Source: Calothrix sp. HK-06
Lineage (GTDB): Bacteria; Cyanobacteriota; Cyanobacteriia; Cyanobacteriales; Nostocaceae
DNA length: 64,000 bases
Direction of reading: 5' to 3'
Assembly (NCBI RefSeq): GCF_001904745.1
Contig: NZ_MRCD01000006.1
Location: forward strand, 62,001-126,000
Shown here one piece after another: positions 1 to 64,000 of this stretch. A program made the translations under genes and the position numbers. Numbering within the stretch: the stretch's first letter is position 1; every line of letters begins with the position of its first letter. The notes below the pieces were generated by a model that searched no databases, was not told the DNA's origin, and worked only from the letters and a program-made list of their open reading frames with translations.

Positions 1-1
1 T

Positions 2-403
2 AATTCAGAAAATTATATTCCCGAACTTTCCTTAGTTGCAGAAATTGACGGTAACATCATCGGTCATGTTCTATTTAGTTACATACATGTTGTGAGTAAT
101 GAAATTTTATCTGTGTTAGCATTGGCGCCAGTAGCTGTGTTACCACAATTCCAAAACCAAGGTATCGGAACTGCTTTGGTACAATATGGATTAGAAAAAG
201 CGGACGAATTAGGAGAAGCACTAGTTATTGTACTTGGTCATCCCTCATTTTATAGTCGTTTTGGCTTTGTTCAATCAACTTATTACGGTATAAAAGCACC
301 TTTTGAAGTTCCAGCAGAAGTGTTCATGGTGAAACCACTGAAAAATTATGAAATTAAATATACTGGTGAAGTGATTTATCCACAAGTATTTAATAATGTT
401 TAA
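2..403 (+). CDS. GNAT-family N-acetyltransferase, 5' end outside window
   Basis: The reading frame is open from the first bases of the window, so the true start lies upstream. The visible 133 residues carry the acetyl-CoA binding motif A of GNAT enzymes, seen as LPQFQNQGIGTALV (a Q/RxxGxG/A-type pyrophosphate loop), followed by a G-H-P-x-F-Y-x-x-F-G-F segment typical of YhbS-like acetyltransferases. Members transfer an acetyl group from acetyl-CoA to an amine; the substrate cannot be told from sequence. An internal ATG at 92 exists, but sequence upstream of it (VAEIDGNIIGHVLFS) already looks like the family's beta2-beta3 region, so 92 is not the start. Confidence 0.85.
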   Translation, partial: NSENYIPELSLVAEIDGNIIGHVLFSYIHVVSNEILSVLALAPVAVLPQFQNQGIGTALVQYGLEKADELGEALVIVLGHPSFYSRFGFVQSTYYGIKAPFEVPAEVFMVKPLKNYEIKYTGEVIYPQVFNNV

Positions 404-410
404 GAAACAT

Positions 411-468
411 AGAAACCCGGTTTCTCAACGAAGCGCAAAAACTAGTAATGTTGAGAGACCAGGTTTCT
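411..468. terminator. Inverted repeat between convergent genes
   Basis: The arms 411-429 (starting agaaacccggtttct) and 450-468 (ending accaggtttct) pair over about 18 positions with two or three mismatches around a 20-base loop. The repeat lies between two convergent genes and could terminate both. The 'aaaccgggtttct' core recurs at 40127-40193 and 49708-49742, so it is also a dispersed repeat family. Confidence 0.6.
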
Positions 469-500
469 TTCGTTTCTATTGATGATTGTTGTGTTCAGTG

Positions 501-1871
501 CTAAATAAACCTGGTTTCAAGATATGCTGCTACTTGTATTATTTTGGCTTCGTTGTAAGGTGCCGCTATTAACTGTACACCTAGAGGTAAAGCGTTTGGG
601 CGTTGAATTGCAATTGATAATACTGGTAGACCAATAAAAGATAATGGCTGTGTAAATTGTCCTAGGTAAGGACGAACTAAAATTTCCTCACCATCTAATA
701 TCATGGTTTGCTGTCCTATTGAAGGCGCCGTAATTGGTGTAGTAGGGGCGATAATTATATCTACGTTTTGGAATATTTCTCTGACTTTATTGCGATACCA
801 TTTTCTAAATCTTTGTGCTTGTATATACCAGTTACTTGGAATTAAGGCGCCTGCTAAAAATCTATCGCGAGTTGCTGGGTCAAAGTCTTGGGGACGGGAG
901 CGAAGTTTTTCTAAGTGTAAGTTGGCGCCTTCTGCTGCTGTAATAATAAATGCGGCTGCACGCGCGCGGTGTGCTTCGGGAATGGTAACGTAATCTTTTA
1001 CATTTAACGCTTCGGCGACTTTTTGAACTGCTGCGAATGCTTCTGGTTCAGCTTTTTGATTGAAATAATCATCTGCGATAGCTATTTTTGTGTTATCAAT
1101 ATCACGTAGAGACGCGATTAATCGCGTCTCTACAGGTGGACGTGTTGTACAAACAGGGTCTTTATCATCTGCACCTTGCAATACATCAAATGCTGCTGAG
1201 ATATCACGAACAGAATTTGCGAACGGCCCAATATGGTCAAAACTACTAGAAAATAAAGCCACACCCGCGCGAGACAATCTACCGTAAGTTGGTTTAAAAC
1301 CATATACACCACACAAAGCTGCTGGAACTCGTATCGAACCATTGGTATCACTACCTAAAGTTATTGGCACTAAACCAGCAGCAACAGCAGCAGCAGAACC
1401 TCCCGATGAACCACCAGCTACACGAGTAACATCATTTGGGTTACGTGTGGCGCCATAATGAGAGTTTTCAGTAACAAAACCATAAGCGTACTCATCCATA
1501 TTTAGCGCACCTACAAGTATTGCACCCGCTTGTTTTAACCTCGCTACAGCGGTTGCATCTTGTGTAGCTACAGCGTTTTCTGCATTTATTTTGGCACCCG
1601 CAAGCGTAGTTAAACCTTTAATATCAAATAAATTTTTGACGGCAAACGGTACACCAGCAAGAATACCCGTGTCCTCACCCTTCTGAATTTGATTATCTAT
1701 TTTTTCAGCATCAGCTAAAGCAGTTTCTGCGGTAACAGTCGTAAAGCAGTTTAGTTCAGTATCGCGCGTTTGAATGCGTTCAAGCGTAGCGCGCACAACT
1801 TCGACTGCGGTCACTTCACGTGCTTTTACCGCAGTTGCTATTGATATCGCGTCGGTTAAATTTAAACTCAT
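501..1871 (-). CDS. atzE: AtzE-family amidohydrolase (amidase signature enzyme)
   Basis: A 456-residue amidase-signature hydrolase. The Ser-cisSer-Lys triad is readable: K79 (in PFAVKN), S155 (in [10 protein letters not shown]) and S179 (in [11 protein letters not shown]). The segment [21 protein letters not shown] matches the AtzE branch, whose founding member hydrolyses 1-carboxybiuret in cyanuric acid breakdown and works as a complex with the small subunit AtzG. A DUF4089/AtzG-like gene lies just upstream on the same strand (1984-2172), which supports the assignment. No cyanuric acid hydrolase or AtzF is visible, so the substrate here is open. Residues 247-256 ([10 protein letters not shown]) are encoded by a 28-bp palindromic repeat lying inside the gene. 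Confidence 0.8.
1106..1133. repeat. 28-bp perfect palindrome inside atzE coding sequence
   Basis: Bases 1106-1133 form a perfect palindrome with half-site GTAGAGACGCGATT. Relatives occur between genes at 5838-5865, 34540-34567, 42185-42204 (shorter) and 45152-45179. Here the element is inside an intact reading frame and is translated as part of the amidase. Confidence 0.9.
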
Positions 1872-1899
1872 TATTTAATATATATTTAAAAACTTTTTC

Positions 1900-1960
1900 T
1901 TGTGGGGTGGACATCCTTGCCCGCCCTTTAAACTGGACGGGCGAGACGCCCATCCCACAA
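1900..1960. repeat. Dispersed hairpin repeat (TTGTGGG...CCCACAA type)
   Basis: The arms starting ttgtggggtgg (1900) and ending catcccacaa (1960) enclose a second pair, tgcccgccc / acgggcg. A close relative with arms cttgtgga / tccacaag lies at 3873-3939. It separates atzE from the atzG-like gene, so it may attenuate transcription between them or simply be a mobile palindrome. Confidence 0.75.
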
Positions 1961-1983
1961 TTAATCACAATAAATGATGTTTA

Positions 1984-2172
1984 TCAAGGCTCAAAAACAG
2001 GCGCCGCTTCTATCTCTTCAGGTAACTCAAACTCATTAACAAGTTTTGCTATATTACCTATCCGTTCAAAATTAGCAACAACCCCATCCTTATACTCATT
2101 ACGTAACTGCAAATCAACCAACAAAGCCATCTGCTCAACATAAACCTTCACATCTAACTCATTCTCTTCCAT
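1984..2172 (-). CDS. AtzG-like small subunit (DUF4089)
   Basis: A 62-residue, acidic, largely helical protein: an N-terminal MEENELDVKVYVEQMALLVD helix, a long helix around IGNIAKLVNEF and a Pro-rich end. The size, the order of helices and the position immediately upstream of an AtzE-type amidase match AtzG, a GatC-like subunit that wraps around and stabilises AtzE. It should act in the cytoplasm with the downstream amidase. The two genes are separated by 112 bp containing a hairpin repeat, so expression may not be strictly 1:1. The assignment rests on context and resemblance, not on a catalytic motif. Confidence 0.7.
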   Translation of the reverse strand: MEENELDVKVYVEQMALLVDLQLRNEYKDGVVANFERIGNIAKLVNEFELPEEIEAAPVFEP

Positions 2173-2247
2173 GTTCTTCCCCTTTTCTCTTTGCGTTCTA
2201 CTTTGCGGGAAATCCTGCGGATTGCGCGTTCTTTGCGGTTCGGTTTA

Positions 2248-3786
2248 TTAAATCCTCATCGCAGCACCAGGGCCTAAAGGCAGCCCAAACATAAACCATA
2301 TTACAAACAAAACCGACCAACCAATCAAAAATGCAATCGAATAAGGCAACATCAAAGAAATCAAAGTCCCTATCCCCAAACTTTTATCATACTTTTGCCC
2401 AAAAGCCACCACCACAGGAAAATAAGGCATCAAAGGAGTAATAATATTAGTCGTCGAATCACCAATACGATAAGCAGCTTGCACCAACTCTGGCGAATAC
2501 CCCAACAGCATAAACATCGGCACAAAAATAGGTGCCATAATAGCCCACTTAGCAGAAGCCGAACCAACAAAAATATCTATAGCCACACTCACCAAAATAA
2601 ACAATATCAACAACGGCGGCCCAGTAATACCCGTCGCCTTCAAAAAATCGGCGCCTTTGACTGCTACAATAATACCCAAATTACTCCAAGCAAAATAACT
2701 AATAAACTGAGCAGCGATAAAAGCCAAGGCAATATAATACCCCATCGAACTCATCGCATTACCCAAAAACCTTGCCACATCCTTATCATTCCTGACAGTA
2801 CCAGCAACCTTTCCATAAACAACACCAGGAATAAAAAAAGCCAACGCAATAATAAAAACAATCCCATCAATAAACGGAGAAGGAATAATTGTAAACTTCT
2901 CAGGGTCGCGTAAAATACCCTGCGGCGGTATCACCAACACCAAAATAAAAGCAATAAAAGCCAAAAAAGCATACCCAGCCCAACGTAAAGCTCTACGTTC
3001 GGTAGCCGTCACCTCATTCATCTCAATATCAGCATCACCTATATAGGCTCCCAAACGAGGTTCAACAATCTGAGTACAAACAAACCACCCTATCAACGTA
3101 ATCAAAAACGTTGACACAGCCATAAAATAATAATTAGCAGTAGCATTCACCTCATACTCAGGTCTTATTAACTGTGCCGCAGTTTGAGTAAGTCCCGCTA
3201 ACAACGGGTCAAGCGAACTAATAAGCAAATTAGCACTAAAACCACCAGCTACCCCAGCAAAAGCAGCAGCCAAACCCGCTAAAGGATGGCGCCCAAACGC
3301 GAGAAATATAACGGCGCCAAGTGGGACAAGCACAACATAACCAGCATCAGATGCTACATTTGCCATTACACCAGCAAAAATAACCACCGGAGTAATTAAC
3401 TTTCTGGGCGTTACCATTACGATTTCACGTAAAAGCGCAGACAGTAAACCAGTAGCTTCAGCAACCCCCACACCCAACATTGCCACTAACACAGTTCCCA
3501 AAGGTGGAAACTCAACAAAATTCTTTACAGCTTGCGTAAATATTCGCCTAACGCTATCAGGTGTAAGTAATGATACAGCCGCAACAGTTTTGTTAGTACC
3601 AGGGTGAACTACCGATAAATTTACAGAAGCAGCTATCGCACTGACCACAATCACAAAAAGTGAGAGTATGAAGAAAAGCGTTAGCGGGTCAGGCAGCTTA
3701 TTACCCAGCTCCTCAATAAAAGCTAAGGACTTTTCCACCCATGTTGACTTTGCCTGGTTTGTTGATGCATCTCTTGTGTCTGGCAC
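2248..3786 (-). CDS. AbgT-family transporter
   Basis: A 512-residue polytopic membrane protein with about a dozen hydrophobic segments after a hydrophilic N terminus. Motifs LPDPLTLFFILSL near the start, GVMANVASDAGYVVLVPLGA in the middle and YRIGDSTTNIITPLMPYFP near the end are characteristic of the AbgT family. Characterised members take up p-aminobenzoyl-glutamate or export sulfonamides using the proton gradient. It is on the same strand as and 75 bp upstream of the AtzG/AtzE pair, which raises the possibility that it imports or exports the amidase's amide substrate or product; this is inference. Length is normal for the family. Confidence 0.85.
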   Translation of the reverse strand: MPDTRDASTNQAKSTWVEKSLAFIEELGNKLPDPLTLFFILSLFVIVVSAIAASVNLSVVHPGTNKTVAAVSLLTPDSVRRIFTQAVKNFVEFPPLGTVLVAMLGVGVAEATGLLSALLREIVMVTPRKLITPVVIFAGVMANVASDAGYVVLVPLGAVIFLAFGRHPLAGLAAAFAGVAGGFSANLLISSLDPLLAGLTQTAAQLIRPEYEVNATANYYFMAVSTFLITLIGWFVCTQIVEPRLGAYIGDADIEMNEVTATERRALRWAGYAFLAFIAFILVLVIPPQGILRDPEKFTIIPSPFIDGIVFIIALAFFIPGVVYGKVAGTVRNDKDVARFLGNAMSSMGYYIALAFIAAQFISYFAWSNLGIIVAVKGADFLKATGITGPPLLILFILVSVAIDIFVGSASAKWAIMAPIFVPMFMLLGYSPELVQAAYRIGDSTTNIITPLMPYFPVVVAFGQKYDKSLGIGTLISLMLPYSIAFLIGWSVLFVIWFMFGLPLGPGAAMRI

Positions 3787-3872
3787 TGGTCTAGCCCTGA
3801 ATATATATGTATGAATTATGACTTTAACTACTAAATTATCTGTTATGTTGTAATTTACAATACTTTTTTAGT

Positions 3873-3939
3873 CTTGTGGAGCGGGCATCCCTGCCCGCCT
3901 TAGTAAAAATGCAATGGGCAAGGATGCCCATTCCACAAG
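3873..3939. repeat. Dispersed hairpin repeat
   Basis: Inverted repeat with outer arms CTTGTGGA (3873-3880) and TCCACAAG (3932-3939) and inner arms around GGGCATCC / GGATGCCC. Same family as 1900-1960. It lies between the DUF952 and AbgT genes. Confidence 0.8.
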
Positions 3940-3950
3940 AAACTTAATCA

Positions 3951-4268
3951 TCATACAAAATAGTTATTACGAGCTTCAAAATCGATAGTTTGACATACTG
4001 CATCAATATTCAAGGCGCCATATATATGTGGAAACAGTTCATTATCAGCAAGTTCATACTTAACTTCGCTATTAACCTTATATACATCAATACAAAGTAT
4101 TATCAAACCAGTTTGGTTTTGAAAAAATCTATCTGCTGTCTTTAAAACTTGTGCATGTGTCGAACAATGAATAAAACCCTCGGTTAAAAGGGAATCCGCA
4201 CGATAGCTGCCAATGATTTGTGCTTCTTCCCAAACTTGGCGCCGTGTAATGTGATAAATAGTATTCAT
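3951..4268 (-). CDS. DUF952 domain-containing protein
   Basis: A 105-residue single-domain protein. The pattern IYHITRRQVWEEA ... YRADSL..EGFIHCSTHAQVL ... LFPHIYGALNIDAV is that of DUF952 proteins, which share an ADP-ribosyltransferase-like fold (inferred for the family; no enzymatic activity is established). Conserved His/Ser in FIHCS and the FPHIYG motif are intact. It is the last of a run of minus-strand genes downstream of the thioredoxin-NHL gene, 38 bp away. Function is unknown. Confidence 0.8.
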   Translation of the reverse strand: MNTIYHITRRQVWEEAQIIGSYRADSLLTEGFIHCSTHAQVLKTADRFFQNQTGLIILCIDVYKVNSEVKYELADNELFPHIYGALNIDAVCQTIDFEARNNYFV

Positions 4269-4286
4269 TTCTTAACTCTCAATTAG

Positions 4287-4310
4287 TATGGTGGGCAGCG
4301 CTCACCCTAC
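4287..4310. repeat. GGTGGGC-type short hairpin supplying a stop codon
   Basis: A ggtgggcagcgctcaccc hairpin, related to the perfect GGTGGGCACTGCCCACC copies at 14847-14863 and 47881-47897. The TAG stop of the minus-strand gene ending at 4307 falls inside the GTAGGGTG edge of this element. Confidence 0.65.
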
Positions 4311-5788
4311 AAGTTGGGGATACAAAAGTCGGGAGCGCATAAACCTGATATTTTTAAGGTAGTTACTTCAAAAGTATTTAGATTTACATGTTGAATAGCA
4401 TGATTGTTAGTGTCAGCAATGTATAAGTTTGAACCGAAAATGCTTAATCCTGAAGGTTCAGAGAATTTGCTATTACTGGCGCCACTACCCAACACAGTTT
4501 TACATTCACCCGTTATTGGGTTAACTAACTTGATTTTATGATTATAAGTGTCAGCAATCCAAAGATTACCTTGTGCATACTCTACACCCATACAATGTTG
4601 TAATCTTACTTCTTCTCCAATACCATCTTTATCACCAAATAAATATAAGTCCCCACTACCGCAAATTGTTCTCACTTTTCCAGTATCTAATTCAATTGCA
4701 CGAATTGAACTACTTTCACTATCTGCTGTGTATATAAAATTACTGTTAATTGTAATACCACTTGGTTGAGCAAAGACTGAAGTATCTAACTCACCATCAA
4801 AACAAGCTTCGGCGCCAGTACCAGCATAAGTTTTAATTATGTTAGTTTCCAAATCCATCACCCAAACTTGGTGTGAACCTGCCATTGCAATATAAAGTAA
4901 ATTGTCGTACTTTACTAAATCCCAAGGAGAATTTAATGCTATATCTAATGCATGACCTTGAGTAAAGCTTAAATTACGACTTTGTATACCTGTTCCTGCT
5001 ATTGTTTCTACAGATTGGCACCGTAAGTCAACTTTACGTAAAGCATGGTTTTCTGTATCGGCAACATAGAGAATTTGATTTTGGTTATCAAATGTCATTC
5101 CTTGTGGCGCCAAAAATTCAGCTATATTAAAATTATCATCTTTAAATCCTGCTTGTCCGCTTCCAATTATATGTAAAACCTCACCTTCTAAAGTTGTCAC
5201 AACAATACGATTATGTCCTGTATCTGCTATAAACAAACCTGAAGAAGTTGCTAAAACTTTACCAGGAAAAGCTAATGGTGTGATTATTGGTTGTCGCTGC
5301 TTCTCTAAAATTACATCTAGCTCTTGAAGATTAATTGTGCCTTTATCTTGATGTTGTTGAATTATTTGCTGTATTAACTCGTCTAAAATTTCACGCTTCC
5401 CTTCTCCCATAAAAGAAGCAACTACATAACCTTCTGGGTCAATTAACATAAAACTAGGATATGCGCGTACAGCATATTCTTGCCAGACTCGAAAATCTTT
5501 GTCTACTAAAACAGGATGTTCGATATCGTAGCGTAAAATAGCTTGACGAATATTCTCAATATCTTTCTCATTATCAAATTTTGCAGAGTGTACACCAATA
5601 ACAGTAAGACTATCTTTATATTTTTGTTCCAGATATTTTAAATCTGGTAGTACATGCAAGCAATTTATACAGCAGTAAGTCCAAAAATCTAAAATAACTA
5701 TTCGACCCCTGAGTTGTTTTAATAACAAAGGTTTATCTGTATTCAACCAATTATATTGCGGTAGTTCCGGCGCCCGTACACGAACCAT
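4307..5788 (-). CDS. Thioredoxin-like / NHL-repeat protein (NHLRC2-like)
   Basis: A 493-residue protein with two parts. Residues about 10-150 are a TlpA/thioredoxin-like domain with the redox motif WTYCCINC (CxxC at C40-C43, with an extra C39). Residues about 165-490 are NHL beta-propeller blades, recognisable from repeated A-D-T-x-N-H and GxGxxGxxDG signatures (IADTGHNRI, VADTENHAL, IADTYNHKI, IADTNNHAI). The architecture is that of NHLRC2, found from bacteria to human; the physiological substrate is not known in bacteria. No signal peptide is evident, suggesting a cytoplasmic protein. The stop codon lies in a dispersed repeat. Confidence 0.85.
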   Translation of the reverse strand: MVRVRAPELPQYNWLNTDKPLLLKQLRGRIVILDFWTYCCINCLHVLPDLKYLEQKYKDSLTVIGVHSAKFDNEKDIENIRQAILRYDIEHPVLVDKDFRVWQEYAVRAYPSFMLIDPEGYVVASFMGEGKREILDELIQQIIQQHQDKGTINLQELDVILEKQRQPIITPLAFPGKVLATSSGLFIADTGHNRIVVTTLEGEVLHIIGSGQAGFKDDNFNIAEFLAPQGMTFDNQNQILYVADTENHALRKVDLRCQSVETIAGTGIQSRNLSFTQGHALDIALNSPWDLVKYDNLLYIAMAGSHQVWVMDLETNIIKTYAGTGAEACFDGELDTSVFAQPSGITINSNFIYTADSESSSIRAIELDTGKVRTICGSGDLYLFGDKDGIGEEVRLQHCMGVEYAQGNLWIADTYNHKIKLVNPITGECKTVLGSGASNSKFSEPSGLSIFGSNLYIADTNNHAIQHVNLNTFEVTTLKISGLCAPDFCIPNL

Positions 5789-5837
5789 AAATTAAAACCC
5801 ACGTTCATTATTAATTGTTTTATTTACCACAAACACA

Positions 5838-5865
5838 GTAGAGACGTGATTAATCACGTCTCTAC
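5838..5865. repeat. 28-bp perfect palindrome
   Basis: A palindrome with half-site GTAGAGACGTGATT, differing from the copy inside atzE only by T for C in each arm. It lies between two minus-strand genes, 8 bp beyond the stop codon of the lipoprotein gene, and could act as a terminator hairpin. Confidence 0.9.
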
Positions 5866-5873
5866 ACAGGGTT

Positions 5874-7409
5874 TTAATTTGTTAGAGGAGTAGGAATAAT
5901 TTCAGGTAATGGGGTTGGTAACACTTTATCTGGTATTATTTCCGGCGCCGGAGATAGTGTAGGTTCAGGTATTGGTTCTTTTGACTCGCGACGTTTAAAG
6001 TATTTACCTAATTGAACCTTTGATGGTTTTACTGTTGCCTCCTTAGTTGCTTCTGGTTGTGGTGTTGGAGACTCAATAATAGGTTTTTCTACTTCAGGTG
6101 CCTTTTCGGGTATTGTTACTTCTGGGGTTGGGACTATCTCAGGTAATGGTGTTGGTTTTTCAACTTCACGTGTCGGTAAAGGTATATTTGTAACTTCTGG
6201 TTCCGGTGTTGGAGTAATAATTACTTCTGGCGGAGCAGGAGTCTCAATTGGTGTTGGTTCTATACTTGGTGCAGGTAATGGTGCTTTTATTTCTCGACGT
6301 TTAAAGTAACCGCCAGATTTTGGTTTCTCTGGTTCCGTTACAGGTGGCGCCATTTCTGGTTCTTTCGCTTCAGGTGTAGGTTCTATAGTTGGTTCAATCG
6401 TTGGTTCAATCGTTGGTGTAGGTTCAGGTAAAGGTTCTTTAGCTACATATGTAGAGTCTACTATGCTGCGTACTTGGTCAGCCGATAGTTCACCTCTAAC
6501 TATTCGAGAAAGTGTGTCTTTGCCTTTAGGTTCATAAGTGAAACTTCTAACTGTGCTGTTAAAGACGTTTTTAATCACTTCGCCTTTACCATCTAAAAAT
6601 TCCAGTTTTATCCAGTTTTTACCTGGCTTGAAGCCTTTTAAGTATATAGACTCCCAACGGTCGAGTACAAAGCTTTCATCATTAACTGTGCAGCGAATCC
6701 GCCAATCGCCAATTTCATCTTGTAATATGTCTTTACCATTTAATTGTAACGGCGCGTTTGTTAAGTAAAAGTCAAGAAGTATAGGTTCGGCGCCATATTC
6801 TCCATTTGGACGGTTATAGGTTAACAGGGGTTTTGTAGCATCTGGGTTATGCTCATCGGTTTTGGTAAATACGTGAAATGTTGTTTGCGCGTAAGCTCCT
6901 TCGCTTTTATAACTTTCGTACCAAGGACGTTCTGCAAAAACACGCAGTGTGTGGGTACCCGGAGGTAGGTTATGCAGGCTTAAAGGCTGATTTAAATCGT
7001 AAACTTCAATACCTGGCTGGCCATCTAAAATTACTTGTAGATGTGAGCCTAGATTAAACTGGGAATCTTTGAATATTGGTAAGTCCTTTACTTGTAGCGT
7101 CACTTCTACTGTATCTGTCGATAAAACCTCATCAGATTTAGGAGTAACGATTGTAACTTGGGGTCGGTAAGTATCTAAACTACGTTGAAGTTCTTGAATA
7201 ACCGATGGTGGGGCAACTTCTGAAATTTGATTAGTTAACTGTGGGTTATCTTTACGTCCTATAAGCGACGGTTCAGTGCTAACAGCTTTATCACCACAGC
7301 TAGCTAGACTTAGTACCAGCAATAGAGCGAAGAATGATTTTACTGTACCTGCAATTATCCTATGTCGTGTTCGTAAAGGTTTGAGGGGCGCCTTCATTAG
7401 CCAGTCCAT
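5874..7409 (-). CDS. Proline-rich lipoprotein of unknown function
   Basis: A 511-residue protein. An N-terminal hydrophobic stretch ends in a lipobox (LSLASC), so the mature protein probably starts at Cys38 and is anchored to a membrane. Residues about 60-290 are a globular domain with no family I recognise; HTLRVFAERPWYESYKSEGA suggests a beta-sandwich. From about 325 the sequence becomes Pro/Thr/Glu-rich (EPTPTIEPTIEPTIEP), with two copies of a Y-F-K-R-R-E-x-K-x-P-x-P motif about 100 residues apart. An inner Met at residue 5 (7397) could also be the start; neither has a strong ribosome binding site. A role in envelope or cell-wall association is only a guess. Confidence 0.7.
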   Translation of the reverse strand: MDWLMKAPLKPLRTRHRIIAGTVKSFFALLLVLSLASCGDKAVSTEPSLIGRKDNPQLTNQISEVAPPSVIQELQRSLDTYRPQVTIVTPKSDEVLSTDTVEVTLQVKDLPIFKDSQFNLGSHLQVILDGQPGIEVYDLNQPLSLHNLPPGTHTLRVFAERPWYESYKSEGAYAQTTFHVFTKTDEHNPDATKPLLTYNRPNGEYGAEPILLDFYLTNAPLQLNGKDILQDEIGDWRIRCTVNDESFVLDRWESIYLKGFKPGKNWIKLEFLDGKGEVIKNVFNSTVRSFTYEPKGKDTLSRIVRGELSADQVRSIVDSTYVAKEPLPEPTPTIEPTIEPTIEPTPEAKEPEMAPPVTEPEKPKSGGYFKRREIKAPLPAPSIEPTPIETPAPPEVIITPTPEPEVTNIPLPTREVEKPTPLPEIVPTPEVTIPEKAPEVEKPIIESPTPQPEATKEATVKPSKVQLGKYFKRRESKEPIPEPTLSPAPEIIPDKVLPTPLPEIIPTPLTN

Positions 7410-7925
7410 GTAACCGCATCCAAATCAGAACAACTTAACAAACAATTGTGGCTCATTAACGCACGTAAGGGAGCAACAAAGCAAAAGTTAAATCTTCTGT
7501 TACAACCTAGCCCTTAGTATTATTCGTGACACAGAATAATAATAAAACTAATGGTGACTATAGATGACCTAGGGTCGCAGATACTAGCACAGAAAAGGTT
7601 AAAAAGGGTAAATTTTACAAATTGTTTCGCTTTGTAAAAAAAATGAATAAAGTATTGACATTTTGACCAGTGATATAACCTAGGAGCTAGAATCTACGGG
7701 AAGTTGAGGGATTTTGAATTATTGTAAACAACTATCTAACAATGTGGGGTATTCGACTTTATAATTCAGACTGAAACCACTCTCCACATGAGTCCTGATC
7801 GCTGCCTAAATTTTGTTAACCCATATTGGTCAACTTAAGTTAGGATGCGAATAAGCTAAAATTTAGTCACCAAGACTCTACGTGGTGTTTATAATTCCTC
7901 AATCCCTTTATAGAGAGGAGGTCGA
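7410..7925 (+). promoter_or_regulatory. psaA upstream region with possible RpaB-type site and -35 element
   Basis: A 516-bp gap between divergent genes, containing the psaAB promoter. A TTGACA hexamer lies at 7655-7660, but no clean -10 hexamer sits 16-18 bp downstream. At 7614-7629 there is TTTACA-AATT-GTTTCG, a partial match to the HLR1 direct repeat bound by RpaB at high-light-regulated photosystem I genes; the second half matches poorly. A strong ribosome binding site, AGGAGG at 7916-7921, sits five bases before the psaA ATG. The start point cannot be fixed by eye. Confidence 0.35.
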
Positions 7926-10184
7926 ATGACAATTAGTCCTCCAGAGCGAGAGGAGAAGAAAGCAAGAGTAATCGTCGATAAAGACCCAGTACCAACTTCG
8001 TTTGAACGATGGGGACAGCCCGGTCACTTCGATAGAACTCTCGCTAAAGGTCCAAAAACCACTACCTGGATTTGGAACCTTCATGCACTCGCCCATGACT
8101 TTGATACACATACAAGCGATTTAGAAGACATTTCCCGTAAAGTATTCGCAGCACACTTCGGTCACTTGGCTGTTGTGACACTGTGGTTAAGCGGGATGAT
8201 ATTCCACGGCGCCAAGTTCTCAAACTACGAAGCTTGGTTAATGGATCCTCTCAACGTAAAGCCTAGCGCTCAAGTTGTTTGGCCAATTGTTGGACAAGAC
8301 ATATTAAACGGTGATGTAGGCGGCGGTTTCCACGGCATCCAAATCACCAGTGGTTTGTTCCAAGTTTGGCGTGGTTGGGGTATCACCAATACCTTCCAGT
8401 TGTATTGCACTGCAATTGGTGGTCTAGTATTAGCTGGCTTGTTCTTATTTGCAGGCTGGTTCCACTACCACAAGCGGGCGCCAAAATTGGAATGGTTCCA
8501 AAACGTTGAGTCTATGCTCAACCACCACTTAGCAGTATTGTTAGGTTGCGGTTCTTTGGGTTGGACTGGTCACATAATTCACGTATCAGCTCCAATTAAC
8601 AAGTTGTTGGATGCGGGGGTAGCATTGAAAGATGTGCCTTTACCTCACGAGTTCATCCTCAACAAAGATTTGTTAATTGAGTTGTTCCCCAGCTTTGCTA
8701 ATGGCTTAACTCCTTTCTGGACGTTAAACTGGGGTCAGTACGCTGATTTCTTGACCTTTAAAGGCGGTTTGAACCCCGTAACTGGCGGTCTTTGGATGAC
8801 TGACATCGCACACCATCATTTAGCGATTGCAGTTCTCTTCATCGTTGCTGGTCACCAATACCGTACCAACTGGGGTATCGGTCACAGTATTAAAGAGATT
8901 CTTGAGAACCACAAAGGGCCTTTCACAGGTGAAGGTCACAGGGGTCTTTACGAAAACTTGACCACCTCTTGGCACGCTCAGTTAGGTATTAACCTTGCTA
9001 TGTTGGGTTCGCTGACGATTATCGTCGCACACCACATGTACGCAATGCCTCCGTACCCTTACTTGGCAACAGATTACGCTACCCAACTGTGTATCTTCAC
9101 TCACCACATGTGGATTGGCGCCTTCTTAATTGTCGGTGGTGCGGCGCACTCAGCCATCTTCATGGTGCGGGATTATGACCCTGTTGTTAACCAAAACAAC
9201 GTTCTGGATCGAGTAATTCGTCATCGCGATGCAATTATCTCTCACCTCAATTGGGTATGTATGTTCCTAGGCTTCCATAGCTTTGGTTTATACATCCATA
9301 ACGACACAATGCGCGCGTTGGGTCGTCCTCAAGATATGTTCTCCGACACTGCAATCCAGTTACAACCAGTGTTTGCTCAGTGGGTACAAAACCTACACAC
9401 AGTGGCGCCTGGTGCAACAGCTCCAAATGCATTGCAAGTTGTCAGTCATGCCTTCGGTGGCGGTATCGTCGCAGTCGGCGGCAAAATAGCAATGATGCCA
9501 ATTGCTTTGGGTACGGCGGATTTCATGATTCACCATATCCACGCATTCCAAATTCACGTAACCGTACTGATTCTGCTTAAGGGTGTATTATTCGCCCGCA
9601 GTTCACGCTTAATTCCAGATAAAGCGAACCTAGGCTTCCGCTTCCCTTGCGATGGTCCAGGTCGTGGCGGTACATGTCAAGTGTCTGGTTGGGACCATGT
9701 GTTCCTCGGACTCTTCTGGATGTATAACACTATCTCAATTGCAATTTTCCACTTTAGTTGGAAGATGCAGTCTGATGTGTGGGGAACTGTTGACTCAGAC
9801 GGTGTGGTTTCACACATCACTGGTGGAAACTTTGCTCAAAGTGCGATTACTATCAATGGTTGGTTGCGTGACTTCTTGTGGGCACAAGCCGCACAAGTCA
9901 TCAACTCCTACGGTAGCGCTCTGGCTGGTTACGGTCTCATGTTCTTAGGCGCCCACTTCGTTTGGGCATTCAGCTTGATGTTCCTGTTCAGTGGTCGCGG
10001 CTACTGGCAAGAATTGATTGAATCGATTGTTTGGGCACATAATAAATTGAAGGTAGCACCTTCAATTCAGCCACGTGCTTTAAGTATCATTCAAGGTCGT
10101 GCAGTAGGTGTGGCACACTATCTACTAGGAGGTATTGCCACAACGTGGGCATTCTTCCACGCGCACATCCTTTCAGTAGGCTAA
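7926..10184 (+). CDS. psaA: Photosystem I P700 chlorophyll a apoprotein A1
   Basis: 752 residues, full length. PsaA and PsaB form the thylakoid reaction-centre heterodimer that binds P700, A0, phylloquinone and the inter-subunit F_X [4Fe-4S] cluster. The F_X loop [18 protein letters not shown] is intact, with cysteines at 575 and 584. The many His-rich helices ([33 protein letters not shown]) bind antenna chlorophyll. The start is fixed by an AGGAGG ribosome binding site. psaB follows after 121 bp, the usual dicistronic order. No features of the far-red paralogue cluster were seen nearby. Confidence 0.99.
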
Positions 10185-21427: not shown

Positions 21428-24046
21428 GTGGTTAAGTTTACCTCTTGGTTCAAAGACAAAACCAACTTGAGTGATACGCACACAAACAATTCGGAGTTGC
21501 CACCGGGCGACGATATTCAACCTCATTCAGAGGCTGATTCAGAGTTGATTACTGATTCTGAGGAGCCAAGGAAGCAAGGCAAAGGTAAGCAGTTGCGGGA
21601 ACAAGTCGGGAGAGTGTCATCTACAATAGTCTCTAAACTCCCTGGACACCCAAAACCGCTATATCGTCGGTTCTGGTTTATTGCTTTTTTAGGTTTGGGT
21701 GGTGGTGCCATTGCGGTGGCTAATACAATTTCGTCTATCGACCGAAATTTACCTCCTACTTCAGAACTTAACAGTTTGGTGCGTGAGCAAACACTGACTA
21801 TTAAAGCTGTTGATGGCACAATTTTACAGCAGTCTGGGCCTGCAACGCGCGAACAGCTAGCACTTTCAGAAATTCCCGAAAAACTCAGAAAAGCTTTTAT
21901 TGCTTCTGAAGACCGACGCTTTGATAAACATAACGGAGTTGATGCTCAAGGTATCGCCCGTGCTATAGTCAATAATTTGCGCTCGCAAAATGTCGTTGAA
22001 GGTGGTAGTACTATTACCCAGCAGTTAGCGCGTATTCTTTTCCTGAAGCAAGAAAAAACCATGTTGCGTAAGGTTAGAGAAGTACGTTTAGCTCAGAAGA
22101 TGGAAAAAGAATTAAGCAAAGACAAGATTTTGGAACGATATTTAAATCTTGTTTACCTTGGTTCTGGCGCCTATGGTGTTGGTGATGCTTCTTGGGTATA
22201 TTTTAGTAAGCCAGTTAGCGAACTAACTTTGGGTGAAATGGCTACTATCGCTGGTTTGGCGCCTGCACCAAGTGTGTACGCTCCTGATAAAAACCCCGAA
22301 GCAGCAAAACAGCGTCGCAACTTAGTTTTAGCGCGAATGTTTGAAGACGGTGTAATTACTGCTGCCGAAAAACAAGAAGCAGTTTCAGAAACACTTACTA
22401 TTAAATCAAGCCTACCCAAACGCTTAGAAGTTCAAGCACCTTACTTTACTAGTTTTGTTCAAAAAGAACTGCCGAAGTACGTTTCCCCCGAAGTTATAGA
22501 AGCAGGTGGGTTAACCGTAGAAACAACTCTCAACCCAACGATGCAAGCAGCAGCAGACAAAGCGGTCGCGAAAACATTGCGAAATCAAGGACGTTGGGAA
22601 AACTTCAAACAGGCAGCATTAGTTTCAATTGACCCCCGCACCGGACAAATTAAAGCGATGGTGGGTGGTAAAGATTTTGGACAATACCAATTTAACCGCG
22701 TCACCCAAGCACAGCGACAACCTGGCTCAACTTTTAAAGGATTTCTTTACGCAACAGCTATTGCTACTGGCATGAGTCCTTATGACACTTTTGAAGATAG
22801 CCCATTAGTAGTAGACGGTTACGAACCAAAGAATTTTGACGAAGGTTATCGAGGTTCGCTTGATATGCGAACAGCCCTAACTAAATCAATTAATATTGTC
22901 GCAGTACGAATTTTGATGAAAGTGGGCTTTAACCCCGTCATCGACCTTGCCCATAAAATGGGTATAAAATCTGAACTCCGACCAATGTATTCTTTAGCAC
23001 TTGGTTCTTCTGAAGTTAATTTGCTTGAATTAACAAGTGCTTATGGAAGTTTTGCAACTCAAGGAGTTCATAACGAAGTACACGGTATTACCCGTATTCT
23101 TAATCGTCGAGGTGAAGAAATTTGGAAGGCAAATTTTACACCCGTTCGCGCGCTTGATTCTGATAGCGCTAATATTACAACCTGGATGTTAAGAAATGTT
23201 GTAACATCTGGAACTGGACAACCTGCACAGTTAGGTAATCGTCCAGTCGCAGGTAAAACAGGAACGACTGATGAAGCTCGTGATTTGTGGTTTATTGGAT
23301 TTATACCACAACTTGTAACTGGGGTATGGTTGGGTAACGATAATAATAATGTTACTTACGGTAGTAGTGCGAGTGCGGCTTACACTTGGCACGAGTTTAT
23401 GGAAGAAGCTGTAAAGGGAATGTCCGTTGAACAATTTGCCGAACGCCCAAAACTCAACGGTCGTAAAGGCACTATTAAAGCTGAACCAGTCAAAGCTAGA
23501 CGACTTGTCAACCGTTCATTCTCCGATAACGAGCGCTCTGGTGATGATAGTTCTGGTGATGATTCTTCAAGACAATCGAGAAGGCGCCGCAGTAGTCAAG
23601 TAAATTCCGACGATAATAATAACGATAACAATAACGAACAATCATCAAGAAGGCGCCGACGTTCTTACCAAAGCTTCCAGCAAGACGACAACAACTCAGA
23701 TAGTACACCACGTCGTCGCAGACGGCGTAGTGGAAGCGATGACTCTAACTCGTCGTCAAGTAGCACATCAAACAGTAGTTCAGATTCTAACGAATCTCGT
23801 CCAAGGCGCCGACGTTTTCGTTCAAATGATTCAGATTCGTCTTCTGAGTCATCTCAACCAACAAGTTCGCGTCGTAGAAGCTCAGAATCTTCAGATAGCG
23901 GTAGTTCGAGATCTTCACGCCAAAGAAGATCTTCTGGTTCATCTGGTTCCTCAAGTAGCGGTTCAAGTAGTGGTTCAAGTAATGGCGGCAATTCATCACC
24001 AAGCACACCATCATGGCGTGAACGTTTGAGACCGAATGGTGGTTAG
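21428..24046 (+). CDS. Class A penicillin-binding protein (PBP1A-type) with Arg/Ser-rich tail
   Basis: 872 residues. After a 79-residue cytoplasmic part and one membrane helix (about 82-100) comes a GT51 glycosyltransferase domain with catalytic E161 (EDRRFDKHNGVD) and GGSTITQQL. The transpeptidase domain has S434-x-x-K437 (PGSTFKG), S487-I-N489 and K610-T-G. It polymerises and crosslinks peptidoglycan. From about residue 670 the sequence is an unusual tail of about 200 residues made almost only of Ser, Arg, Asp and Asn, with RRRR clusters. The start is GTG, preceded by AGGAA. A terminator follows at 24131. Confidence 0.95.
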   Translation: MVKFTSWFKDKTNLSDTHTNNSELPPGDDIQPHSEADSELITDSEEPRKQGKGKQLREQVGRVSSTIVSKLPGHPKPLYRRFWFIAFLGLGGGAIAVANTISSIDRNLPPTSELNSLVREQTLTIKAVDGTILQQSGPATREQLALSEIPEKLRKAFIASEDRRFDKHNGVDAQGIARAIVNNLRSQNVVEGGSTITQQLARILFLKQEKTMLRKVREVRLAQKMEKELSKDKILERYLNLVYLGSGAYGVGDASWVYFSKPVSELTLGEMATIAGLAPAPSVYAPDKNPEAAKQRRNLVLARMFEDGVITAAEKQEAVSETLTIKSSLPKRLEVQAPYFTSFVQKELPKYVSPEVIEAGGLTVETTLNPTMQAAADKAVAKTLRNQGRWENFKQAALVSIDPRTGQIKAMVGGKDFGQYQFNRVTQAQRQPGSTFKGFLYATAIATGMSPYDTFEDSPLVVDGYEPKNFDEGYRGSLDMRTALTKSINIVAVRILMKVGFNPVIDLAHKMGIKSELRPMYSLALGSSEVNLLELTSAYGSFATQGVHNEVHGITRILNRRGEEIWKANFTPVRALDSDSANITTWMLRNVVTSGTGQPAQLGNRPVAGKTGTTDEARDLWFIGFIPQLVTGVWLGNDNNNVTYGSSASAAYTWHEFMEEAVKGMSVEQFAERPKLNGRKGTIKAEPVKARRLVNRSFSDNERSGDDSSGDDSSRQSRRRRSSQVNSDDNNNDNNNEQSSRRRRRSYQSFQQDDNNSDSTPRRRRRRSGSDDSNSSSSSTSNSSSDSNESRPRRRRFRSNDSDSSSESSQPTSSRRRSSESSDSGSSRSSRQRRSSGSSGSSSSGSSSGSSNGGNSSPSTPSWRERLRPNGG

Positions 24047-24551: not shown

Positions 24552-24552
24552 A

Positions 24553-24608
24553 GTTATGAGTTATGAGTGATGAGTTATGAGTTACCACTCAGCACTCAGC
24601 ACTCAGCA
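24553..24608. repeat. Eight-copy heptamer repeat array (GTTATGA / CTCAGCA)
   Basis: Contiguous heptamers: GTTATGA, GTTATGA, GTGATGA, GTTATGA, GTTACCA, then three CTCAGCA. It sits between convergent genes. This is an STRR array typical of heterocystous cyanobacteria. Confidence 0.9.
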
Positions 24609-24615
24609 CTTTTAA

Positions 24616-25101: not shown

Positions 25102-26436
25102 TTACTGAGAATTGTTTGATTTTCTTAACCGGGTCATGAAAAAACCATCCATATTATGTTGATGTGGCACCACTTTTAACCAGCCTTGGGGCATTATATA
25201 TTTGTTTAGGAATGAATTAATGCTCGGTGCCTCAATTTCCCACTTTGGGTTTGCGACTAAAAACGACTCGATAACCGCTTCATTTTCGAGTGGGTGTAAT
25301 GTACACGTAGCATAGACTAACACGCCACCTGGTTTTACATATGTTGCCGTGTTCGACAATAGCTCACGTTGAAGCACAGCTAGTTCTTGTACACTTTCAG
25401 GAGTTTGGCGCCATCGTGCATCTGCATGACGGTGTAAAGTACCTAGTCCAGAACAAGGAGCATCAACTAAAACGCGGTCGGCAGTATTAATAAACTTTGA
25501 AAAACTCCGACTATCTCCAGTACAAATTTCTATAGACTTTAACTGTAAACGACGAGCATTCTCCTCAAGTTTACGAAGCCGCGAAGCAGTGCGGTCACAA
25601 GCCCATATTTTACCTTCATCACCCATCAGTTCCGCAATATGAGTTGTTTTTCCACCCGGCGCCGCACAAGCATCAATTATCACTTCTCCTGGTTGCGGGT
25701 CGAGTAAGTGAGCTACTAGCTGCGCGCTGCTATCTTGGACACTCCACCAACCTTGTTCATAACCGGGTAAATTTTGGATGGCGCCGTTACTACCAATTAA
25801 ACGTAAAGCTTGGCGTAAATAACTAAGTTTTTCATATTTAATATTACTATCTTGAAAAGCTGTTTGAACTTCTGTAATCGTCGCACGAAGCAAATTAACC
25901 CGTAAATCAATTGTCGGTGTCTGGTTCATCCATTGGCACAATTTCTCAGTTTCCTCTTCACCAAACTGTTTTACCCACACTTCAATTATCCAATCAGGAA
26001 AGCTATATAAAACTCCTAACCCTTCCCCTTCTCGCTTTTCCCCCTCACGTATAAACGAGCGTAACATTCCATTCACGACGGGTGCAAGCTGTACAAAACC
26101 ATTATCCTTTGCGAGTTCAACAGTAGTATTTACAGCAGCAGAAGCGGGTATGCGGTCTTGGTACATCAATTGGTACAAACCGATATGTAAAATAGTACGT
26201 AAGTCCTTTGGTTGCTGGTGTGCTTTCTTTTTTCCAAGCAAGTCAATAAAATAGTCAAGCGTTCGTTGGCGCCGAACACAACCATAAACCAATTCAGTAA
26301 CAAGGCGCCGTTCATTATCAGCTAAACTTGATTTTGAATTATATTTTTGTAACGCACGGTCAACAGCAACATCAACAAAGGCGCCTTTATGGACATCACG
26401 CAAAGCAATAAAAGCAATTTGACGAGCAGAAAACAT
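25102..26436 (-). CDS. rsmB: 16S rRNA (cytosine-967-C5)-methyltransferase
   Basis: 444 residues. An N-terminal NusB-like RNA-binding domain (about 1-140, with FIALRDVHKGAFVDVAVDRAL) is followed by a Rossmann methyltransferase domain. Seen: the SAM-binding motif DACAAPGGKTTHIAEL, motif IV DAPCSGLGTLHRHADARW, and motif VI YATCTLHPLENE with the nucleophilic Cys. The frame is open for 40 further codons upstream to 26556, but that stretch is encoded by a dispersed hairpin repeat and lacks resemblance to RsmB, so the ATG at 26436 (MFSARQIAF) is chosen. Confidence 0.95.
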   Translation of the reverse strand: MFSARQIAFIALRDVHKGAFVDVAVDRALQKYNSKSSLADNERRLVTELVYGCVRRQRTLDYFIDLLGKKKAHQQPKDLRTILHIGLYQLMYQDRIPASAAVNTTVELAKDNGFVQLAPVVNGMLRSFIREGEKREGEGLGVLYSFPDWIIEVWVKQFGEEETEKLCQWMNQTPTIDLRVNLLRATITEVQTAFQDSNIKYEKLSYLRQALRLIGSNGAIQNLPGYEQGWWSVQDSSAQLVAHLLDPQPGEVIIDACAAPGGKTTHIAELMGDEGKIWACDRTASRLRKLEENARRLQLKSIEICTGDSRSFSKFINTADRVLVDAPCSGLGTLHRHADARWRQTPESVQELAVLQRELLSNTATYVKPGGVLVYATCTLHPLENEAVIESFLVANPKWEIEAPSINSFLNKYIMPQGWLKVVPHQHNMDGFFMTRLRKSNNSQ

Positions 26437-26466
26437 TAAAATTACGATTATTAGAATATATATATC

Positions 26467-26583
26467 GTAGGGGCGGGTTAACCCATATCCTCCAACTAGT
26501 AGAAAAATATCGTAAACCCGCCCCCTAATTAAAAATACCGTAAACCCGCCCCCCAATTCAAAACATCATAAACCCGCCCCTAA
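26467..26583. repeat. Hairpin repeat GTAGGGGCGGGTT with three AAACCCGCCCC arms
   Basis: One left arm (26467-26484) and three right-arm copies (about 26514, 26540 and 26569). Only one can pair at a time, so it looks like an expanded palindromic repeat. Relatives: 42008-42094, 51107-51164, 63903-63961. It lies between invertase and rsmB. Confidence 0.85.
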
Positions 26584-26586
26584 ATT

Positions 26587-36135: not shown

Positions 36136-36158
36136 GAGTTAGAAGTTAGGAGTTATAA
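36124..36158. repeat. Heptamer repeats GTTAGGA at gene end
   Basis: Five heptamers, GTTAGGA, GTTAGGA, GTTAGAA, GTTAGGA and GTTATAA. The first two contain the stop codon of the CpcT/CpeT-like gene. Confidence 0.85.
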
Positions 36159-42007: not shown

Positions 42008-42094
42008 GTAGGGGCGGGTTAACCGAAATTTGCGTTATCAACGACGATATCGCTAAACCCGCCCCTAAACCCGCCCCAATCAGAACCCGCCCCA
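42008..42094. repeat. Hairpin repeat GTAGGGGCGGGTT with three AACCCGCCCC arms
   Basis: Left arm at 42008-42024 and right-arm copies at about 42055, 42067 and 42084. Same organisation as 26467-26583, again one left and three right arms. Confidence 0.85.
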
Positions 42095-42184
42095 ATCACA
42101 GGTGCCAGATTAATATATAAAAAACCAAAACATCTGTATTAAATTATAAATATGAGATGTTAGGGTTTATATTTATAATTTTCA

Positions 42185-61584: not shown

Positions 61585-61661
<77 letters not shown>

Positions 61662-61664
61662 ATT

Positions 61665-62260: not shown

Positions 62261-62266
62261 TATAAT
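62261..62266 (+). promoter_or_regulatory. -10 element upstream of tRNA-Trp
   Basis: A perfect TATAAT hexamer 43 bp before the tRNA. No good -35 element lies 17 bp upstream. Confidence 0.45.
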
Positions 62267-62308
62267 GGTGAAAGTTCAGCGTTTGGGACTGAATTAAAGA
62301 CATTACAA

Positions 62309-62381
62309 GCGCTCTTAGTTCAGTTGGTAGAACGCAGGTCTCCAAAACCTGATGTCGGGGGTTCAAGTCCTCCAGGGCGCG
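62309..62381 (+). tRNA. tRNA-Trp (CCA)
   Basis: 73 nt without encoded CCA. Acceptor GCGCTCT/AGGGCGC (one G-T pair), anticodon arm CAGGT-CTCCAAA-ACCTG giving anticodon CCA, T loop TTCAAGT. The discriminator base is G. It lies between rplS and secE, as in other cyanobacteria. Confidence 0.96.
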
Positions 62382-62610
62382 CTCTCAATAGAAGGATTGC
62401 AACCCGAAAGATTTCAAAAATCTTGTAGTATTAACCACAAGACAAGAAAATTTCGGGTAGAATCTTATTAACTATTATTTACAGCTCTTGCTTCGAGTTG
62501 TTGAAATTAGGAGCTAGAGCTGTAAGTTGTTGACTGGATGTATGAATCTCGTTAAGAATTGATTATTCTTAGCGGCAGGCACTTTTGATAGCGAAAAGGG
62601 AGGTGAAACC

Positions 62611-62835
62611 GTGAGCAAAAAAAACGAAGCTGAAATAGCAGAAACTTCGGGTGGGTTCAGCGTCAACAAATTTGTTGAAGGCACTAAAGAAGAGTTCGAG
62701 AAAGTGGTTTGGCCCAGTCGCAAGCAAGTAATTAGTGAGTCAGCGGCTGTATTGTTAATGGTGACACTTTCAGCAGCGTTGATTTTTTTAGTTGATAAAC
62801 TCTTTACGTGGGGCGCCCAACAGGTATTCGGATGA
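62611..62835 (+). CDS. secE: Preprotein translocase subunit SecE
   Basis: 74 residues with one C-terminal membrane helix (about 45-68). FVEGTKEEFEKVVWPSRKQVISES is the conserved SecE amphipathic region. It clamps the SecY halves of the translocon. The start codon is GTG, preceded by AGGGAGG. Its stop codon overlaps the nusG start (ATGA), so the two are translationally coupled. Confidence 0.95.
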   Translation: MSKKNEAEIAETSGGFSVNKFVEGTKEEFEKVVWPSRKQVISESAAVLLMVTLSAALIFLVDKLFTWGAQQVFG

Positions 62836-63473
62836 CTTCTGTAACAGACTCTGGTTACAACGAACAAGCTTTGCACTCTGACGAAACCGGGCAAGATAAT
62901 GCTTCCTCAAAGGTTTCTCGCTGGTATGCAGTGCAAGTAGCATCGGGTTGTGAAAAGCGTGTTAAAACAAACTTGGAGCAGCGCATTCAAACATTTGATG
63001 TAGCTGATAAAATACTTCAGGTGGAGATACCACACACACCCGCCGTCAAAATCCGTAAAGATGGTAGTCGCCATCAAACCGAAGAAAAAGTCTTCCCCGG
63101 TTACGTGCTGGTGAGGATGATCATGAATGATGATGTCTGGCAGGTAGTACGCAACACCACCCATGTAATTAACTTCGTGGGGGCAGAGCAAAAACGCGGA
63201 ACAGGTAGAAGTCGCGGTCACGTTAAACCCGTACCGTTGAGTAATTCTGAAGTCGAGCGAATCTTTAAGCAGACTACCGAACAGCAAGAAGTCGTCAAGA
63301 TTGATATGACGACGGGTGATAAGATAATTGTGCTTTCTGGTCCATTTAAAGACTTTGAAGGTGAGGTGATTGAAGTTAGCCCAGAGCGGAGTAAACTTAA
63401 AGCCTTACTATCAATATTTGGACGAGATACACCGGTCGAACTAGAATTCAATCAGGTAGAGAAACAGAGCTAA
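62832..63473 (+). CDS. nusG: Transcription termination/antitermination factor NusG
   Basis: 213 residues. NGN domain (about 30-140: WYAVQVASGCEKRVKTNLEQRI, EEKVFPGYVLVRMIMNDDVWQVVRNT) and a C-terminal KOW domain (VLSGPFKDFEGEVIEVSPERSKLKALLSIFGRDTPVELEF). It binds RNA polymerase and Rho or the ribosome. The ATG at 62832 overlaps the secE stop. The frame extends upstream to 62808, but inside secE. Confidence 0.96.
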   Translation: MTSVTDSGYNEQALHSDETGQDNASSKVSRWYAVQVASGCEKRVKTNLEQRIQTFDVADKILQVEIPHTPAVKIRKDGSRHQTEEKVFPGYVLVRMIMNDDVWQVVRNTTHVINFVGAEQKRGTGRSRGHVKPVPLSNSEVERIFKQTTEQQEVVKIDMTTGDKIIVLSGPFKDFEGEVIEVSPERSKLKALLSIFGRDTPVELEFNQVEKQS

Positions 63474-63479
63474 AACAAA

Positions 63480-63905
63480 ATGGCGAAGAAAGTTGTAGCG
63501 GTTATTAAGTTGGCACTTAACGCAGGTAAAGCCAACCCAGCACCGCCTGTAGGTCCCGCGCTTGGTCAGCACGGTGTTAATATCATGATGTTCTGCAAAG
63601 AATATAATGCCAAAACAGCCGACCAAGCTGGGATGATTATTCCTGTAGAAATATCAGTATTTGAAGACCGGAGTTTTACATTCATCCTCAAAACTCCTCC
63701 TGCTTCGGTACTAATTAAAAAAGCGGCAAAAATCGAAACAGGGTCGAATGAACCGAATAAAAAGAAAGTCGGTTCAATTACGAAAACCCAGTTACGTGAA
63801 ATAGCCCAAACAAAAATGCCCGACTTGAATGCCAACGATATTGATGCAGCAATGAACATCATCGCTGGTACCGCAAGAAACATGGGTGTTACAGTTACAG
63901 AGTAG
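63480..63905 (+). CDS. rplK: 50S ribosomal protein L11
   Basis: 141 residues. [63 protein letters not shown] and the C-terminal [20 protein letters not shown] are hallmark L11. It forms the GTPase-associated centre and is needed for the stringent response. Six bp after nusG. The TAG stop lies at the start of a GTAGAGGCGGG hairpin repeat. Confidence 0.97.
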
Positions 63906-63961
63906 AGGCGGGTTCACCTAAATTTTTCATTGTTATCCCAAGATATAGATAAACCCGCCCG
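63903..63961. repeat. GAGGCGGGTT hairpin between rplK and the following gene
   Basis: GAGGCGGGTT (63905-63914) pairs with AAACCCGCCC (63951-63960). It contains part of the rplK stop codon. If transcribed it would sit in the leader of the downstream gene (expected rplA) that lies beyond the window; the last 40 bases hold no start. Confidence 0.8.
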
Positions 63962-64000
63962 TACAGTAAAATTTTATCGGGGGAGAGGCTAATTGCTTCG

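Follow-up and report, generated by a model that had tools for sequence, protein, structure and literature searches.

GGCGCC as the alternate highly iterated palindrome of a Calothrix/Dulcicalothrix genus, with a candidate orphan methyltransferase and decay at the inner cytosine

What could fill a stretch of cyanobacterial DNA with a single hexamer? The stretch in question, from Calothrix sp. HK-06 (the window: 64,000 nucleotides, 40.4% GC; the genome is G000 in this analysis), carries GGCGCC 104 times between positions 1 and 64,000 by exact count, the sequence being a palindrome and each site hence read on both strands. Base composition predicts about 4 copies and a third-order Markov model 17.1, an expectation itself inflated by the GGCGCC sites. 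HIP1, the highly iterated palindrome GCGATCGC, is absent from the window (0 on exact count), and so is CGATCG (0). To our knowledge, HIP1 has no agreed function. A preliminary description had counted about 103 GGCGCC by eye, with nine quoted positions that all prove exact, had put the chance expectation at about 4 for some 40% GC and had seen no HIP1 octamer; the exact counts bear it out on each point.

The explanation proposed here, to which I give a probability of about 0.8, is that one genus has GGCGCC as its alternate highly iterated palindrome (HIP), that this palindrome is marked by an orphan cytosine-5 (m5C) methyltransferase of the GRCGYC type, and that its sites decay by C-to-T change at the inner C and are renewed. 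Observed directly are the counts, the fixation in all seven genus genomes, the methyltransferase at one locus, the absence of the HindV endonuclease family, the C-to-T hot spot, the conservation and the lack of build-up of decayed sites between 95% and 87% identity; I infer the specificity of the enzyme, the methylation, the renewal with whatever causes it, and the use to the organism.

A palindrome fixed in one genus

The excess of GGCGCC is not confined to the window. The whole genome (9.99 Mb, in 243 contigs) holds 15,449 copies, or 1,546/Mb, and 88 copies of HIP1, or 8.8/Mb. A genome-wide GGCGCC count near expectation and frequent HIP1 outside the window are what the preliminary description had named as contrary to its reading, and neither was found. 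Alternate HIPs in the sense of Elhai (2015) are GC-rich palindromes at about 1,000-2,000/Mb in genomes low in HIP1, as is the case here; GGCGCC is thus the alternate HIP of this genome, which becomes a new member of a published kind. The same reading had been offered in the preliminary description, and it is supported; Elhai (2015) had already named GGCGCC as such in Calothrix PCC 7103.

That a GC-rich hexamer is merely common by composition or chance deserves a word, since high-GC genomes do reach such counts: G435 (55% GC) has 88 GGCGCC in 41 kb, against 110.7 expected from a third-order Markov model. In HK-06, however, CCGCGG, which has the letters of GGCGCC reversed, occurs 6 times in the genome against 15,449, and on this control a composition artefact is rejected for the Calothrix/Dulcicalothrix genus, its probability being close to nil.

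The genus is set apart from its family. Among the 217 family genomes sampled, the 7 of the genus all carry between 7,475 and 20,380 GGCGCC (1,150-1,711/Mb), whereas the other 210 have at most 1,053 per genome and reach at most about 111/Mb. The genus comprises, besides HK-06, Dulcicalothrix desertica PCC 7102 (G060), Calothrix PCC 7103 (G061), Calothrix NIES-4105 (G062), two metagenome-assembled Calothrix (G063 and G064) and Calothrix PCC 7716 (G065). HIP1 numbers 31-163 in each of them (3.6-22.6/Mb) and GACGTC, the other palindromic form considered here, 38-78; for PCC 7103 the HIP1 density is 14.1/Mb, Elhai's table (PMC4390886) giving 14. The GGCGCC HIP is fixed in 7/7 sampled genomes of the genus. 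The plasmid stretches read are GGCGCC-rich as well: one of 30 kb from PCC 7716 has 43 copies, and plasmid2 of NIES-4105 reaches 106 over the 30 kb from 318000 to 348000, where the sites are over twice as dense as on the chromosome.

Across the class, 388 genomes were drawn, 24 of them from the same family, and these show only two other sources of such densities: besides HK-06, about 1,150/Mb is reached by G435 and by 12 genomes of one family (f16) only. The latter are small genomes (probably picocyanobacteria, judging from this size) with at least 1,357 control sites each, and were set aside as a second GGCGCC HIP on these high control counts. G435 was rejected on the Markov comparison above, made with its own tetranucleotides; the rejection is incomplete, as its octamer CGGCGCCG exceeds expectation (42 against 12.8 in the same 41 kb) although the core GGCGCC does not. 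Two further genomes are moderately rich in GGCGCC, G561 (3,074 against 165 control sites) and G448 (1,169 against 25), but in the stretches sampled from them (10 kb and 30 kb) no octamer is commoner than HIP1.

A HindV-like methyltransferase and its predicted target

Of the ten m5C methyltransferase matches in HK-06, the HindV-like ones are the most notable. One of them, P0003 (PF00145, E 3.4e-63), shares 53% identity with a plasmid protein that bears the annotation hindVM, and 59-60% with Calothrix plasmid proteins. It has relatives in 63 of the 217 family genomes, which reach at least 80% identity in the 7 genus genomes only, the next best being 72%. An alternate HIP in Elhai's sense also goes with a methyltransferase able to act on the palindrome; by homology, the gene of a candidate for this part is present in 7/7 genus genomes.

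The closest copy has a shared location. In G060-G065 it adjoins a RuBisCO-like gene, and 7/7 genus loci have it, one as a fragment; none of the 23 loci outside the genus has a methyltransferase beside the RuBisCO-like gene (about 1.5 kb inspected on each side, less in three loci). On its other side lies a glycosidase-like gene in 4 of these 6 genomes, with small open reading frames (ORFs) in between in G062 and a different gene in G064 (RuBisCO-like and glycosidase-like are names read from sequence, not database results). In HK-06 this vertical gene is divided between the end of contig C29 and the start of C207. Its first piece, once past GGPP in the catalytic motif, passes directly into unrelated sequence, which is compatible with an insertion or with a break in the assembly. 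P0003 is encoded on another contig, C60, together with a second, shorter HindV-like copy. That contig looks mobile, with ORFs that read as recombinase-like, DnaB-like and relaxase-like, and one of its ORFs resembles one annotated as bacteriophage protein homolog beside the methyltransferase of a NIES-4105 plasmid.

In a tree of 48 rows, where the genus is represented by six copies of the shared locus and P0003 (further HindV-like copies of its genomes, at 55-61% identity, stand outside the tree), the genus methyltransferases form one clade with support 100/99. Its neighbours are G169, G187 and G189-G191 (93/74), followed by Calothrix elsteri and its kin, G027 and G029; Calothrix CSU_2_0 likewise belongs with the closest relatives. 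Six of these, G169, G187, G190, G191, G027 and G029, also hold the restriction endonuclease RE_HindVP (PF09519). A profile search among the 217 family genomes finds this endonuclease in 43, in many directly adjoining the methyltransferase, and in 0/7 of the genus. The orphan methyltransferase suggested in the preliminary description has thus a matching gene without the HindV endonuclease, but one whose predicted target is the wider GRCGYC, and not GGCGCC alone.

This prediction of GRCGYC, of which the GGCGCC form alone would have been amplified, follows from the recognition stretch, which in the genus enzymes is nearly identical to that of relatives linked to restriction-modification (R-M), with which it was compared. 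Outside the genus, genomes with both enzymes avoid the site, as restriction at GRCGYC would predict: medians are 5 GGCGCC and 6 GACGTC for the 39 with methyltransferase and RE_HindVP, compared to 52 and 54 for the 17 with a methyltransferase match alone, and 39.5 and 46 for the 150 with neither (four genomes with RE_HindVP and no methyltransferase match at 1e-40 fall outside the three groups and complete the 210). The BsaHI paper (PMC2413257) reports that, within GRCGYC, the base methylated by M.BsaHI is the central C, and a table in the RIMS-seq paper (PMC8565308) gives GRCGYC for Haemophilus influenzae Rd, under the usual threshold of that method. The genus resembles the BsaHI/HindV R-M systems in the type of methyltransferase and in a recognition stretch near that of the RE_HindVP-linked relatives; it is unlike them in that RE_HindVP is absent and that one form of the target is enriched instead of avoided.

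What distinguishes the genus, among the genomes examined, is that it alone combines the loss of HIP1 with an orphan HindV-like methyltransferase, which is in line with Elhai's view that the loss of HIP1 makes room for a different palindrome. G194, a family member of 10.7 Mb, has 535 HIP1, 326 GGCGCC genome-wide and 4 GATC in 80 kb, with no HindV-like match at 1e-40 and no replacement palindrome in the stretches sampled.

Decay, retention and possible renewal of the sites

If the enzyme methylated the inner C, the sites themselves should tell. Stretches orthologous to 480 kb of G061 were aligned (236,300 usable columns) and ingroup singletons counted as derived. In consensus GGCGCC, C-to-T singletons occur at 90 of 802 strands at the third base (C3), 12/802 at C5 and 24/802 at C6, and at 716 of 13,560 other CpG. 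The control nGCGCH, where the fifth base never precedes G, gives 33/501 at C3 and 24/501 at C5, a ratio that differs from that of GGCGCC (P = 2e-5); with nGCGCn, whose C5 set includes C before G, the counts are 53/808 and 45/808. A first, smaller data set had shown the same order (55, 8 and 14 of 328 at C3, C5 and C6). The C3-to-T excess is present in all five close lineages, about 1.3- to 4-fold over other CpG; HK-06 lies within the range of these five, and a faster decay there on account of its split vertical gene, also considered, was not seen. Such a hot spot is what deamination of GG(m5C)GCC predicts. According to Elhai (2015; PMC4390886), the methylated base was known for no such enzyme; it had, however, been established in the BsaHI paper (PMC2413257).

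In spite of this decay the sites are well kept. At about 87% identity (G061-G062) GGCGCC is retained in 119 of 157 cases, rank 1 of 1,319 hexamers, the GC-only hexamers together being kept in 233/429. In the two other comparisons with G062 it comes third of 1,285 and second of 1,218, in two ingroup pairs 16th of 1,822 and 15th of 1,482, and against G063 between 27th and 69th of about 600; its rank falls to 502 of 1,508 between G061 and G000 and to 372 of 709 between G000 and G064. Gly-Ala codon pairs spelled GGCGCC are kept as DNA in 62/82 cases versus 30/59 for other spellings (P = 0.004), with equal retention of the amino acids (75/82 and 53/59); against G063 the figures for DNA are 19/45 and 7/33. 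At the same time, the fraction of GGCGCC turned into GGTGCC/GGCACC shows no increase between 95% identity (0.091) and 87% (0.074), in contrast to that of the control, which goes from 0.101 to 0.232. High retention together with no build-up of the decayed GGTGCC between 95% and 87% identity is the reason why the sites seem to be renewed.

What would renew them is where explanations part. A two-state fit, per pair distance, gives 0.163 for C-to-T against 0.110 in the control (1.5x), and 1.139 against 0.052 for T-to-C (22x); it assumes stationarity and one site class, and polymorphism at the tips could inflate the rates (an earlier, smaller set had given a saturation of 0.70 against 0.10). Ordinary mutation and purifying selection could by themselves keep a GGCGCC that functions in repair, segregation or nucleoid binding, the methylation being incidental. 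This would sit well with rank 1-3 among hexamers at 13% divergence, with retention that exceeds the average in every reading frame as well as in intergenic DNA (8/11 there), and with the halving of changes other than at C3 (0.07 versus 0.153 in the control). Yet selection alone should speed one direction of exchange and slow the other, whereas both are faster than in the control; for this reason the fit leans towards a mutational or repair component, and selection as the only cause has perhaps one chance in three of being right.

Biased repair, either the G-meC-dependent mismatch repair proposed by Elhai or a T:G repair like very-short-patch (VSP) repair, would instead make and renew sites as a by-product. 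I consider this slightly likelier than selection alone, though still short of even odds. The roughly 22-fold T-to-C exchange speaks for it, as does the finding of 281 out of 536 GGTGCC/GGCACC opposite a GGCGCC, against 250 of 9,244 in the control (ordered ingroup pairs, with gains and losses pooled). Other near-misses, however, show no depletion relative to the outgroup G194, and polarised gains are not significant. A depletion of near-misses was also tried as proof of a ratchet and given up, since near-misses are rarer than in the outgroup G028 and not than in G194. Nor is Vsr available: the profile PF03852 finds it in 0/7 genus genomes and 1 of 217 in the family, the same search recovering it in E. 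coli, and Vsr-mediated repair was rejected as the renewal mechanism. It is conceivable, if rather unlikely, that a sequence-specific repair other than Vsr restores GGTGCC to GGCGCC, decay and repair together then amounting to a self-sustaining genome-wide palindrome.

Several observations weigh against the explanation of an orphan methyltransferase with decay and renewal. Presence of the methyltransferase is not sufficient for a GGCGCC HIP, as the 17 family genomes outside the genus with a match and without RE_HindVP (13 with a full-length gene, 4 with fragments or stops; 1,751-8,091 HIP1 each) hold at most 277 GGCGCC. The seven genomes are one origin, making the link between gene and palindrome a single event. 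In a comparison of the m5C repertoire of six genomes, the genus members sampled have 9-16 methyltransferase matches apiece, among which there may be other candidates, and because the vertical gene of HK-06 is split over two contig ends, its active copy may be the one on C60. The decayed fraction, which does not grow from 95% to 87% identity, rises to 0.16 against the most distant member, G063 (control 0.279). Lastly, polarised gains from GGTGCC to GGCGCC are 2/19 compared to 37/906 in the control (P = 0.19), too few to prove renewal, and this sample favours a static GGTGCC.

With these points taken into account, the history of the orphan methyltransferase and its palindrome most likely ran as follows. 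In the ancestor of the genus, an m5C methyltransferase of the HindV/BsaHI type would have settled without its restriction enzyme in the chromosome, beside the RuBisCO-like gene, and GATC and HIP1 sites would have disappeared from the same lineage. GGCGCC would since have been held at about one per 600-900 bp, the enzyme marking its inner C, methylated sites eroding by C-to-T change, and selection or biased repair renewing the eroded ones so that their numbers stay steady. The palindrome might perhaps serve as a repair mark, after Elhai's proposal.

The window, earlier systems and meaning

Within the window, the sites are placed in a random-like rather than regular manner, because the variation of their gaps (mean 609 bp, coefficient of variation 0.93) stays within the limits that hold 95% of random placements (0.83-1.18). 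The preliminary description had them in coding and non-coding DNA and on average evenly spread; they do lie in both, but density is 1.86/kb in ORFs of at least 100 amino acids (96 sites) versus 0.64/kb outside them (8 sites). As many as 95.9% of sampled positions are at most 1 kb from a GGCGCC. Three sites (23583, 23652 and 23805) cluster at 23583-23810, within a penicillin-binding-protein ORF (21428-24046). The longest stretch free of GGCGCC (26386-30479, 34.4% GC, containing an invertase gene) lies between sites 26380 and 30480, and a gap as large as this (4,100 bp) or larger appears in 9.9% of random placements. The ten ORFs scanned resemble an ordinary chromosome (psaA/psaB-type proteins, argininosuccinate synthase, penicillin-binding protein, invertase and similar). 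Several restriction-type palindromes are strongly avoided: GATC is found 17 times with about 154 expected, and TTCGAA, TGCGCA, CTGCAG, GTGCAC and GACGTC are among those with 0 copies. Short tandem arrays of heptamers (AGTTATG, CACTCAG, AGTTAGG) and a repeated AAACCCGCCCC element occur at 24552-24610, 26503-26580, 36123-36155 and 42053-42098.

Like HIP1 (GCGATCGC), GGCGCC is palindromic, GC-rich and of a density in the order of one per kb, and HIP1 is likewise tied to an m5C methyltransferase in most group A and B strains, as Elhai (2015; PMC4390886) has it; the two differ in sequence and in methyltransferase, and HIP1 is down to 3.6-22.6/Mb in the genus. The same source describes the GGCGCC HIP from PCC 7103 and from a 19 kb portion of Calothrix D253, with depleted GATC, loss of the CGATCG methyltransferase in PCC 7103, and two GrCGyC methyltransferases but none recognisable as specific for GGCGCC; it regards exceptional HIPs as sporadic and not clade-wise, and proposes the G-meC-dependent mismatch repair. 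PCC 7103 belongs to the genus studied here and shares with it the palindrome, the loss of HIP1 and GATC and the GrCGyC methyltransferases; where Elhai's account covered one genome and 19 kb of another, this one covers 7/7 genus genomes, one gene at a shared locus and a mark of decay at the inner C. The literature searched (on HIP1, GGCGCC and Calothrix methylomes, with subscription journals mostly uncovered) yielded no other publication recognisably on a GGCGCC HIP. To the extent of these searches, fixation across the genus, an orphan gene at one locus, a base-specific decay mark and decay without build-up are additions to what was published.

In conclusion, the swap of palindromes throughout a genus, the methyltransferase at a shared locus and the relatives that have the restriction partner make up a natural comparison. 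The C-to-T mark concerns the very methylated base that Elhai's model requires, and the data on decay and conservation turn the two rival origins, selection and biased repair, into measurable predictions.

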